A stretch of DNA of 64,000 bases from Arthrobacter bussei. GTDB taxonomy: Bacteria; Actinomycetota; Actinomycetes; Actinomycetales; Micrococcaceae. The notes beneath the pieces are model-generated. The model made no database searches, had not been told where the DNA came from, and saw nothing but the letters and a program-made list of their open reading frames with translations. Made by a program: the position numbers and the translations under genes. The stretch lies in assembly GCF_009377195.2 (NCBI RefSeq), contig NZ_VJXX01000001.1, forward strand, positions 1,426,001-1,490,000, read 5' to 3'. Shown here in pieces: positions 6,860-9,706 of the stretch (position 1 is its first letter; each line of letters begins with the position of its first letter).

Positions 6860-6899
6860 CACGACGACGCCGGCGCAGAGATGCGCCGGCGTCGTCGTG
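6860..6899. terminator. Bidirectional hairpin terminator
   Basis: A perfect 18-bp inverted repeat (left arm 6860-6877, right arm 6882-6899) with a 4-nt loop GAGA lies between the convergent FMN reductase gene and the 63-residue protein gene. There is no U-tract, as is common in actinobacteria. It closes both transcripts, including the SpaB_C operon. Confidence 0.8.
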
Positions 6900-6929
6900 C
6901 GTGCACCGGAACATTCCGGTGACCGGGTG

Positions 6930-7121
6930 TCAGTGCCAGAGGCTGTCCGCCCAGGCGGCGTCCCGAAGGTAGTCCCGCGCGGGACCGATCTCCCACAGCT
7001 GACCCTGCGATTCGAGCACGCCGTCGTTCTGCATGGACTCGATCGCCTCGGAGGAGCAGCCGAGCGCCTCGGAGAGGTCGTCCTGGTCCATGGCGAGCAC
7101 GATGGTGTTCCTGGCATTCAT
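6930..7121 (-). CDS. 63-residue protein, last gene of the SpaB_C operon
   Basis: Not recognised. Residues 12-45 look like a small helix-turn-helix or winged-helix piece (DQDDLSEALGCSSEAIESM, then NDGVLESQGQLWEIG). The C-terminus is tryptophan-bearing (DAAWADSLWH). GAAGGA lies 8 nt before the ATG, and the gene begins 42 nt after the SpaB_C-type enzyme, so they are co-transcribed. The terminator at 6860-6899 ends the operon. It could be a peptide-recognition adaptor for the enzyme, a small regulator or a second peptide substrate whose tail is modified. The sequence alone does not decide. Confidence 0.7.
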   Translation of the reverse strand: MNARNTIVLAMDQDDLSEALGCSSEAIESMQNDGVLESQGQLWEIGPARDYLRDAAWADSLWH

Positions 7122-7163
7122 GGTGCGGTCCTTCGCTCGATGGGTCCTGGGCGGCCGTGACCG

Positions 7164-8132
7164 TCAGGGCTGTCGCGGTGCAATGAGGTCCACCTGCGGC
7201 TTCCAGCTCCGCGCGTAGAGACCGAGGGCGGCCTCCTCGCGGGGGACGAATCCGAGGCGGTTGAGCGTCATGTGCGCCTGGTAGACCGTGAGGTGCTGCG
7301 CGCTGCGGCTGACCCGCACCTTGTCGGCGCGGTAGAGGTAGGTGTCGAGCGCCCGGTACCAGCGCCGTCGCCAGTTGTGCACCGCGGACTCGGACGCCGT
7401 CGCCGCCATCAGGGCGTGGAAGCCGGTCGCCTTCGAGGAGACCTGCGCCGCCATGGCCTCGCGGACTGCCGGAGCGCGCGGCCCGACGTCGGCGGTGCAG
7501 GTTCGCAGGTGGCTGTCCCAGTAGAAGTCCCAGGTCAGGCGACGGCGATCCTGCCAGCCGGCCGAGCGCGGCCCGCGCATCATGCTCTGGGCGGCGTCGA
7601 ACAGGACCAGAGCGCCGAGCGCCGAGCGGCTCTGCATGCGGGGGAACCGCTGGTTGCCCCAGATCGCCAGCTCGGAGCTGAGTTCGAAGACCTCCTCGGC
7701 CAGGTGGAGTCCCTCCACACCGCCGTACTTCACGAGGTTCGCCTCGAGCTGAGGGTCGGCCATCTCCTGCCCACCCGAGTAGTAGGTGTTGCTCGCGGGA
7801 GCCGTGTAGTGCTGACGGACCGCCAGCAGCGGAAGGGTCCGCGCAGTGCGGGCCTGGAGCGCCCGCTGGAAGGCGCGGAGCCTCTCGAGGACCCGGGGGT
7901 GCGCGTGGATGCTGAGCCTGATCTGGCTGACCACTCCGGTGGATGCGTCCTCGCATCGCGTGAAGTACCAGCGCTTGGCGCCCAGCGCCTGCGCCTGCGC
8001 CACCAGCGGGGTGACCAGCTCTTCGATGATGCCGTCCGCTACATCGAAGCCACCCGTCGAGAGGGAGAGATGCCACCACTGAGTGCTGACGACCGTCCGT
8101 GAGGCGGTTCGCACGGCTGTCAGCTGACTCAT
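7164..8132 (-). CDS. Stand-alone SpaB_C / thiopeptide-type bacteriocin biosynthesis enzyme
   Basis: Encodes 322 residues, about the size of an isolated C-terminal (elimination) domain of LanB lanthipeptide dehydratases. Visible family marks are QWWHLSL (18-24), the strand RWYFTRC with Arg59, QIRLSI with Arg72, and HMTLNRLGF with His287 near the C-terminus. In NisB, two arginines and a histidine at similar motifs act in glutamate elimination; R59, R72 and H287 may match them. No LanB glutamylation domain is encoded nearby. Related stand-alone domains act in split LanB, thiopeptide cyclisation or amino-acid-adding RiPP systems. AAGGAGAG precedes the ATG. It lies 87 nt after a tiny peptide gene that may encode its substrate. 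Family assignment is from motif reading; reaction unknown. Confidence 0.75.
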   Translation of the reverse strand: MSQLTAVRTASRTVVSTQWWHLSLSTGGFDVADGIIEELVTPLVAQAQALGAKRWYFTRCEDASTGVVSQIRLSIHAHPRVLERLRAFQRALQARTARTLPLLAVRQHYTAPASNTYYSGGQEMADPQLEANLVKYGGVEGLHLAEEVFELSSELAIWGNQRFPRMQSRSALGALVLFDAAQSMMRGPRSAGWQDRRRLTWDFYWDSHLRTCTADVGPRAPAVREAMAAQVSSKATGFHALMAATASESAVHNWRRRWYRALDTYLYRADKVRVSRSAQHLTVYQAHMTLNRLGFVPREEAALGLYARSWKPQVDLIAPRQP

Positions 8133-8183
8133 GGCTCTCTCCTTCAGGGTCTGTGATCACCCCCGCTGGGGCGGGCTATGGGA

Positions 8184-8212
8184 GCGGCGCCCGGGCTCTA
8201 GTCCGGCGCCGC
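8184..8212 (-). promoter_or_regulatory. Stem-loop between peptide gene and enzyme gene
   Basis: GCGGCGCC (8184-8191) and GGCGCCGC (8205-8212) form a perfect 8-bp stem with a 13-nt loop, 7 nt after the peptide stop codon. A weaker hairpin (CCCGC/GCGGG, 8162-8175) follows. A partial terminator here would give more peptide than enzyme message, as in many peptide natural-product operons. That role is inferred. Confidence 0.5.
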
Positions 8213-8219
8213 CATGTTC

Positions 8220-8360
8220 CTACTTGGGCCAGTCCCAGCTGCTGGCCGAGACCGAGGCCTTGGGCCAGTCCCAGCTTGCCGCGCTGACGGTCTGGCCTGC
8301 CGGCGCAACGGCTCCGACCAGGATCATCAGGCCTGCAGTTGCGCCGAGTACCTTCTTCAT
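8220..8360 (-). CDS. 46-residue peptide with signal-like N-terminus and duplicated SWDWPK motif
   Basis: The gene is short: ATG 8360, TAG ending at 8220. A strong ribosome site, GGAAGGA, sits 5 nt upstream. The protein starts MKKVLG and has a hydrophobic stretch (residues 4-21). A signal-peptidase-like site VSA lies at 25-27. The last 19 residues contain SWDWPK twice, at 29-34 and as the final six residues 41-46. At DNA level an 18-bp direct repeat (8223-8240 and 8259-8276) recurs with a 36-bp period. The first gene of an operon with a SpaB_C-type enzyme, it is a candidate RiPP precursor or secreted signalling peptide. Nothing known to me matches it. Coding status rests on the ribosome site, motif repeat and context. 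Confidence 0.75.
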   Translation of the reverse strand: MKKVLGATAGLMILVGAVAPAGQTVSAASWDWPKASVSASSWDWPK

Positions 8361-8737
8361 GGCGATCCTTCCTTGCCCGTTCCCCGGGAGGTCGAACTGG
8401 TCCGCACTGCGGATGCGCAGTGCCCGTATCCATCGGCATCCCGGTCAGGACCCCGGTGAACCGGCTCCATCAGAATGTCGGTGCGCAGAGGGTAGTGTCC
8501 AGCAGTACGGGTGGCCGTTTGCGGACATGACGCCAACCGGACGCCGAGCGGATGCGGACACCACGGCCATGCGTGCCGACAGGGAAGACGGATACGGCGG
8601 ATCCGCGGAACGACGCGGATTCCCGGCTCGGACGGGGCCCGTGGATTGCGAGCCCGCCAGATGTGTCATTAACTGGACATGTCATGTTTTTCGCACCGTG
8701 CTGAATGCTCATGACCAGGGGACGACAGGGAGGGTTC
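8361..8737. other. Divergent regulatory region, peptide operon versus regulator gene
   Basis: This 377-bp stretch has no convincing gene. It holds a perfect 8-bp hairpin in the peptide leader (GCACTGCG 8404-8411, CGCAGTGC 8416-8423). Near the regulator it has two TGTCAT direct repeats (within about 8660-8690) in the only AT-rich part, a likely regulator site. No good sigma-70-like promoter was seen for the peptide gene. Confidence 0.5.
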
Positions 8738-9706
8738 ATGCTGGATGCCACGGCGCTGGAGGTCTATCGCTATGCGGTGGGACACCCGGGCTGGACCCGC
8801 GCCGAGGTGTCGGAGCAGCTGGGCCTGACACTGCGCCGGATCGACGAGGCCATCGGCGAGCTGTCCCGGCGCCGGCTGCTCAGCCCTCAGGCGGGCAGCG
8901 ACGACGGCCTCGTCGCGGTGTCCCCGGATGTCGCCCTCGCCGATCTGGTCGACGCCGACGAGCGCACCCTGCAGGACCTGAAGGCACGCATCAGCGGCCA
9001 GCGGCGCGAACTCTCGAGCCTTCTCCCCACCTTCCTCGATGCGCGCAAGCACGTCCTCGCGAGCACGTCGGTGGAGACACTCGAGGACCCCCACCTCATC
9101 CACCGCGTGCTCATCGACTACGGCCGGGATGTGACGGAGAAGGTCTACATCGCACAGCCGGGACAGGGCTCGACGGCGGACGTCCACGAGGAGAGCGTCC
9201 GGAAGGACCTCGAACTCCTGGAGAAAGGGGTGCGCCGCCGCACCCTGTACGACACGAGTACGAGGGACCACGTCCCGACGCGGAAGGCCGTCGAGGCCAT
9301 CGCCGCCGGCGGTGGTGAGTTCGGAGTCCTGCCGTTCATCCCGCTGCGCATGCTGATCTTCGACGAGAAGCTGGCCCTGGTGGGCCGACAGCTGACGCGC
9401 GACGACAAGGCGGCGCTCGTGATCCGGGACCATAGCCTGATCAACATCTTCACGCAGCTGTTCGAGATCGCCTGGGAGATCAGCCAGACGTTCCTGGCAC
9501 CCGAGGAGGTGGAGTCCCCGCTCAGCAGCTTGCAGCGATCGATCATCCAGGGACTCGCCAACGGGCTCTCCGACGAGTCGATCGCACGGCGGTTGGACAT
9601 CAACGTGCGGACGTGCAGGCGGCACATCGCCTGGATGCTCGAGACCCTGCGCGCGGACAGCCGTTTCCAGGCCGCGCTGAAGGCCCGCGACGCCGGCTGG
9701 ATCTGA
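8738..9706 (+). CDS. TrmB-like / LuxR-type two-HTH transcriptional regulator
   Basis: Encodes 322 residues from ATG 8738, chosen because AGGGAGGG lies 4-5 nt upstream; earlier in-frame starts lack this. Residues 1-50 form a winged HTH of TrmB type (LEVYRYAVGHPGWTRAEVSE). The middle resembles a TrmB effector or PLD-like domain (FIPLRMLIFDEKLALVG). The C-terminal 60 residues are a LuxR HTH (LANGLSDESIARRLDINVRT). It is divergent from the SWDWPK peptide operon and probably controls it. Such regulators sit beside peptide and secondary-metabolite genes in actinobacteria. The ligand is unknown. Confidence 0.85.
   Translation: MLDATALEVYRYAVGHPGWTRAEVSEQLGLTLRRIDEAIGELSRRRLLSPQAGSDDGLVAVSPDVALADLVDADERTLQDLKARISGQRRELSSLLPTFLDARKHVLASTSVETLEDPHLIHRVLIDYGRDVTEKVYIAQPGQGSTADVHEESVRKDLELLEKGVRRRTLYDTSTRDHVPTRKAVEAIAAGGGEFGVLPFIPLRMLIFDEKLALVGRQLTRDDKAALVIRDHSLINIFTQLFEIAWEISQTFLAPEEVESPLSSLQRSIIQGLANGLSDESIARRLDINVRTCRRHIAWMLETLRADSRFQAALKARDAGWI

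Follow-up and report, generated by a model that had tools for sequence, protein, structure and literature searches.

Two activities are familiar from stand-alone SpaB_C proteins, namely elimination and [4+2] cyclisation. Here we describe a small locus in Arthrobacter bussei that places such a protein beside a 46-codon gene for a peptide with two SWDWPK copies, within a 64,000-nucleotide stretch analysed as a whole (the window; assembly GCF_009377195.2, contig NZ_VJXX01000001.1, positions 1,426,001 to 1,490,000 of the forward strand). PMC9247985 likewise gives elimination and [4+2] cyclisation for its enzymes, and proposes for the pyritide enzymes MroBC and MroD that they recognize the leader and a C-terminal Trp tripeptide by binding; this offers a precedent for the Trp-x-Trp (W-x-W) reading proposed here, with new chemistry on a Trp-acid-Trp unit. 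We consider it somewhat probable that the locus is a LanB-free system resembling those for ribosomally synthesized and post-translationally modified peptides (RiPPs), in which a SpaB_C protein without its former LanB partner recognizes the W-x-W end of tiny precursors and most likely modifies them.

On the minus strand the peptide gene is followed by the SpaB_C gene and a 63-codon gene, with a regulator gene divergent, and this layout, twin 18-bp repeats included, agrees with a preliminary description of the DNA. Among named records, Arthrobacter sp. Leaf234 is the nearest (98% in SpaB_C). The principal features are as follows:

8220..8360, minus strand: precursor-like peptide gene, 46 aa, with a hydrophobic N-terminus and two SWDWPK copies (open reading frame (ORF), repeats and relatives)
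8223-8240 and 8259-8276 (span 8223..8276), minus strand: two identical 18-bp repeats coding SWDWPK (repeat search, 100% identity)
7164..8132, minus strand: stand-alone SpaB_C (PF14028) protein, 322 aa (profile and fold match)
6930..7121, minus strand: 63-aa protein with a winged-helix-like body (weak model) and the conserved tail RDAAWADSLWH (ORF, tail alignment and model)
8705..9706, plus strand: divergent TrmB-like/LuxR regulator, start possibly 8738 (profile match)

Genera are coded g1 (the window's own genus), g26, g27, g29, g35, g44, g47 and g53, with loci L-numbered and genomes G-numbered. The window peptide is MKKVLGATAGLMILVGAVAPAGQTVSAASWDWPKASVSASSWDWPK, and AAGGAAGGA stands upstream of its gene. 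Within g1, the pattern W[D/E]WPK followed by TR has exactly one match per genome in 37 of 38 genomes, compared with one match in 8/38 for a reversed-pattern control; in the one deviating genome, G032 (L015), a single internal SWDWPK is intact and the second copy is altered. Outside the genus the pattern matches 6/357 family genomes; the three matches inspected (L049-L051, the others being in G088, G118 and G336) have no SpaB_C in the stretch examined and were taken as chance. Among the 33 g1 precursors read (of 34 loci, L071 being omitted by the start filter), 20 carry two motif copies, 9 one and 4 three, the motif forms the exact C-terminal end in 32, and the N-terminus is hydrophobic in 32, this character being lost in L016. 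Across 30 g1 loci the last motif copy takes 12 DNA forms versus two amino-acid forms, and in 16 equal-length loci the proportion of nonsynonymous differences (pN) in that copy is 0 against a synonymous proportion (pS) of 0.425, with pN/pS 0.74 for the linker, all in rows preselected by the motif. The alignments thereby point to purifying selection on the last copy at the amino-acid level. The pN/pS, operator and hairpin-element comparisons cover 53 of 61 loci, namely those matching the motif and a SpaB_C start. One record, L040, titled Vibrio cholerae strain 35D, holds a version of this Arthrobacter locus that is 84-90% identical to the window, and looks mislabelled or contaminated.

A W-x-W peptide is present in seven of the nine SpaB_C genera where it was looked for, g27 and g44 carrying a LanB-type gene instead. 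In six lineages beyond g1 the peptides differ almost wholly save for W-x-W at or near the C-terminus. The gene before the main-copy SpaB_C of g53 has 7-17 codons from the nearest well-placed start (27/27 intact loci), with the forms MKSWDWF (7 residues), MTKVWDWI, MTSKVWDWL and MKKATAPVSIKSWEWF, and two further g53 W-x-W peptides adjoin a frameshifted SpaB_C copy. Peptides of g29 have a signal-like start and terminate in AWDW or IWDW (6/6 loci, of 10 genomes), those of g26 end in IWGWPQKT and IWDWKN (2/2 loci), and the g47 precursors L202 and L203 hold four and six tandem VWDWPQQ copies (2/2 loci). As a side observation, these multi-unit g47 genes resemble multi-copy pheromone precursors. Haematomicrobium (L048) has IYDWPTVA, with no signal and a single Trp, and L204, a g35 locus lying at the end of a contig, has RRIWAWPESWPILGRK. 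Precursors thus range from 7 to about 90 residues and from one to six motif copies, and x is D or E except for G in L190 and A in L204, with Y-D-W in Haematomicrobium. The preliminary description named the lack of a conserved peptide beside SpaB_C homologues in related genomes as grounds for refutation, and such a peptide is found both in g1 and in further genera; a short ribosomal precursor adjoins a tailoring-enzyme homologue and the two are co-conserved, as in a RiPP locus. It had also named the whole Ser/Trp/Asp/Pro/Lys repeat as the target, and here the comparison does not support Ser, Asp, Pro or Lys: the part common across genera is W-x-W alone, with Ser, Pro, Lys and the signal sequence not shared. 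Sec cleavage after VSA, as it proposed, is not general: signal-like starts occur in g26, g29, g47 and g1 loci other than L016, but judged by eye the members in g53, L048, L204 and L016 have no signal sequence.

On the far side of the SpaB_C gene, the 63-aa ORF matches no family above cut-off, and its tail is conserved. ORFs of this type at all loci (115 matching) have 28 distinct 13-residue ends; all 28 fit RDxxWAxxxWx and 25 have RDAAWA. The tail is kept in g1, g53, g26, g29 and g47, and it survives where the body has decayed (L018, L031, L043) or is hardly alignable (g29); no match to the protein was found in L048. The structure prediction is a weak one (pLDDT 67, pTM 0.43), its best Foldseek match being to CRP-type winged helices at E 0.09, and its element order is that of a winged helix. 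Two short ORFs with variable bodies and conserved Trp tails therefore flank one SpaB_C protein; the 63-aa protein may be a second substrate, and both tails would be read by the same SpaB_C protein.

The window protein scores 62 bits against Pfam PF14028 (cut-off 24.4), is the sole match in its genome and matches the SpaB_C fold, so that both profile and fold place it in the family and the unrelated fold named earlier as a danger did not appear; the SpaB_C profile found nothing among PDB sequences. SpaB_C occurs in all 35 g1 genomes of a first search (own included), in all 38 of the family search and in 29/29 g53 genomes, in total 86/395 family genomes and 9/32 genera (E 1e-20), and beyond the family in 5 genomes among 394 of the class (1e-15). 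The class search also showed neighbouring PF14028 gene pairs of stand-alone size in the large actinomycete genomes G888, G755, G746, G798, G773 and G638. Two further observations concern the protein itself: its N-terminus MSQLTAVRTASRT (window 7164-8132, residues 1-14) is predicted to be disordered yet is strongly conserved in orthologues, and in the orthologue encoded at L046 6001-7032 an insertion of ~35 residues precedes the YGG motif.

Relatives in g27, g44 and family f35 connect this clade to split lanthipeptide dehydratases: a PF04738 gene precedes SpaB_C in 8/8 (hmmscan), and all eight proteins retain three of the four aligned elimination residues. No W-x-W ORF is common to the relatives at six of these eight loci, where five chance-like ORFs were seen (L193, L205 twice, L206, L209). 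At the elimination set Arg/Glu/Arg/His the window protein has S74, N132, K135 and H287, and across 37 W-x-W rows R74 is found in 18, E132 in 11, R135 in 10 and H287 in 34; these rows take in 7 of 27 g53 orthologues, with 14 of 45 paralogue rows aligned, and count one gene twice (L048 and L200). A fuller alignment with all 27 g53 orthologues (45 orthologue rows) has R74 in 20, E132 in 4, R135 in 3 and H287 in 45, and in both alignments the LanB-type rows are those of L083 and of the 16 loci, out of 30, in which the motif was seen in the frame. The elimination residues are unevenly eroded in the W-x-W clade, most of all in g1. The glutamate-elimination residues of LanB are not complete in the window protein, and the earlier suggestion of chemistry unlike that of known clusters gains from this, in that plain LanB elimination is probably not involved (three of the four positions hold S, N and K), but is weakened by other-genus relatives, which keep more.

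Several of these details weigh against the favoured reading. R74 is lost in 17/18 g1 rows versus kept in 5/7 g53 and 12/12 other rows, E132 is kept in 7/12 rows from neither g1 nor g53, and two g47 proteins retain R74, E132 and H287. Position 135 is K in 8/8 LanB-linked relatives too, and therefore the change there is older; H287 is replaced by Q in L190 and L191 and by R in L204, and therefore catalysis by H287 is not universal. The motif itself is not uniform (G in L190, A in L204, Y-D-W in L048), and upstream regions of the g53 SpaB_C paralogues (49 genes) hold no shared W-x-W peptide, only isolated ORFs in L124, L140 and L150. Finally, no protease or exporter was recognized among nine neighbouring ORFs.

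Such points bring forward the main rival, which we regard as unlikely, namely that the SpaB_C protein has ceased to be an enzyme and acts instead as a peptide receptor or sequestering protein, for which the W-x-W peptide and the 63-aa tail compete in a contest that feeds the regulator. This fits the uneven erosion, the presence of one binding protein flanked by two different Trp-bearing tails, and the fate of H287, lost in 3/37 orthologue rows. It also fits the loss of the catalytic His from most paralogues, only 5/45 rows keeping it. These paralogues are the extra g53 copies (L110-L152; at least two SpaB_C matches in 25/29 genomes, up to seven with fragments counted, some tandem). Yet H287 is kept in 34/37 orthologue rows, and W205, H208, R255, R257 and R276, invariant across all 37, would also suit a catalytic pocket. 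A reduced lanthipeptide or pyritide pathway with its LanB encoded elsewhere in the genome is improbable: the fold, the PF04738-linked relatives and the residues kept in g47 speak for it, but neither Ser nor Thr is common to the cores (VWDWI, AWDW) and a profile search found PF04738 in 0/27 genomes, an absence that is unproven because no control matched and G056, with a LanB-type ORF below cut-off, was also missed.

The remaining features of the locus are as follows:

8523..8531, plus strand: candidate operator GGACATGAC, peptide side (motif count)
8675..8683, plus strand: candidate operator GGACATGTC, regulator side (motif count)
8133..8219, minus strand: peptide-SpaB_C intergenic RNA, with a stem-loop past the stop codon and a C-rich/G-rich hairpin element at 8160-8175
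6860..6899, no strand: perfect 18-bp inverted repeat between convergent genes, terminator-like, without a T run

The regulator matches GerE (3.7e-08), but its TrmB match (0.0058) is below that family's cut-off; the true start may be 8738, behind GGGAGGG. Between the peptide and regulator genes GGACATGnC occurs in 30/30 g1 and 18/23 g53 loci, where mononucleotide shuffles lead one to expect 0.87 of 53 loci, and in 24/30 g1 loci the site is present twice, at a spacing of about 140-152 bp. Among the remaining regulator-bearing loci, 8/13 contain GGACATG once or twice and 5 lack it. A terminator-scan match at 8660-8683 takes in the operator palindrome (8675-8683), and a perfect 8-bp inverted repeat, GCACTGCG/CGCAGTGC, was seen by eye at 8404-8423 in the leader before the peptide gene. 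The strong terminator claimed at 6860-6899 was not borne out, as its perfect stem has no T run and is absent from the terminator-scan list. Past the peptide stop codon a stem-loop does exist, as had been noted, but in the window it folds no better than shuffles (z -0.69); elsewhere L048 folds strongly (z -7.2) and L005 moderately (z -2.1), and z lies near zero or higher in L016, L082 and L066, so that folding is not significant in four of the six loci folded. In both g1 and g53 a C-rich/G-rich hairpin element and TAACCA-like bases precede the SpaB_C ribosome site, and we observed at 8154-8175 (minus strand) that this element and its flank are kept between the two genera amid drifting sequence.

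These features invite a reading of the short ORF as a leader peptide that attenuates the SpaB_C gene in response to Trp, since it is short, has at least two Trp codons in nearly every case and is separated from the gene by a stem-loop in several loci. We consider this very unlikely. Selection falls on the peptide and not on Trp codons only, with synonymous drift in the last copy unaccompanied by amino-acid change; an acid lies between the Trp codons nearly always, whole units are repeated up to six times, signal-like starts occur in four genera, L048 has one Trp only, and no T run follows the stem in L048 or L082.

Six of the nine neighbouring ORFs scanned have families (PucR-type HTH, ANTAR/GAF, FMN reductase, aminotransferase, acyltransferase and transketolase) and three have none; these genes look like chromosomal backbone. 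Most g1 loci and L048 share an aminotransferase and acyltransferase on the regulator side and an FMN reductase on the opposite side, and in five g53 loci compared the FMN reductase is found in three and the aminotransferase side in one, with L082 carrying a catalase on its flank by reading. The gene set looks old and vertically inherited, and therefore physiology or signalling is favoured over a patchy antibiotic, the more so because every genome examined of two genera (38 + 29) has the set. Also very unlikely is a secreted bacteriocin with repeats raising the dose, to which the signal-like starts in g1, g26, g29 and g47 and the one to six repeats would lend themselves, but which accords poorly with a peptide nearly invariant within the genus at one pattern match per genome, a chromosomal neighbourhood common to g1, L048 and parts of g53, nine neighbours without a recognized immunity or export gene, and a 7-residue g53 form without a signal.

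The preliminary description is supported in part, and it overlooked the operator pairs, the conservation of the 63-aa tail, the LanB-linked ancestry and the genus-wide inheritance. Under the favoured reading, the SpaB_C protein, which derives from the separate SpaB_C half of a split lanthipeptide dehydratase and has lost the other half, would recognize W-x-W at the C-terminus of a tiny ribosomal peptide and most likely modify this peptide in the cytosol around the Trp-acid-Trp unit, by neither glutamate elimination nor [4+2] cyclisation. The Trp tail of the 63-aa protein (RDxxWAxxxWx) would be read by the same protein, as second substrate or docking partner, the peptide would leave by Sec export where a signal sequence is present, and the divergent regulator would bind the GGACATGnC palindromes and probably sense the product. 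More tentatively, and with some doubt on our part, the system could be a new RiPP class, in which a LanB-free SpaB_C makes a compact Trp-acid-Trp product from precursors of at least 7 codons and has the Trp tail of another small protein as a further target. The product would serve throughout the genus as a pheromone or redox cofactor, which the regulator would read via paired GGACATGnC sites, and its dose would depend on the number of repeats (one to six). The fold and the RiPP-like logic are known, and the class would be new if the chemistry is. What these Arthrobacter-related soil bacteria carry seems to be a modified-peptide system of an undescribed kind, perhaps one for signalling; among the matches listed in the open-licence literature, no description of a W-x-W/SpaB_C system was found, SWDWPK or WDWPK appeared in no paper and none was on topic by title, and no open-licence literature was found on stand-alone SpaB_C RiPPs or thiopeptide-type biosynthesis in Arthrobacter. 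Its interest lies in a clade where elimination looks eroded and there are no [4+2] substrates, but where a Trp motif that hardly varies accompanies the protein; the clade affords a natural series of SpaB_C proteins leading from LanB-linked to LanB-free forms, and its precursor genes are so short that gene callers likely overlook them.

Among described systems, the SPASM domain belongs to the darobactin enzyme, and PF13186 was found in 0/11 g1 genomes including that of the window (control matched in 8/14; radical S-adenosylmethionine proteins without SPASM were not searched) and in 4/9 g53 genomes. Darobactin is made by a radical S-adenosylmethionine enzyme, and Lys is not conserved in the W-x-W peptides here; nonetheless the W-x-W-x-K spacing of SWDWPK resembles that of WNWSKSF in darobactin, which has Trp-Trp and Lys-Trp cross-links (PMC9055067). 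Biarylitides are alike in their minimal precursor gene, given in PMC13417212 as five residues and 18 bp, and unlike in using a P450 enzyme and another motif. The LanB elimination domains of NisB, MibB and MadB have a glutamylation domain that is neither attached nor adjacent here, and the positions aligned, by our own motif-based mapping, with NisB R786 and R826 (mutants in PMC4979651) are R in 18/37 and 10/37 rows. Pyritide and thiopeptide [4+2] enzymes (MroD, TbtD, PbtD, TclM) differ in having an adjacent LanB-type partner, and, unlike their substrates, most W-x-W cores are without a pair of dehydratable residues and the g53 forms are without a leader. With mycofactocin and PQQ, which rely on other enzymes, the system shares a short precursor whose conserved core is kept through a lineage.

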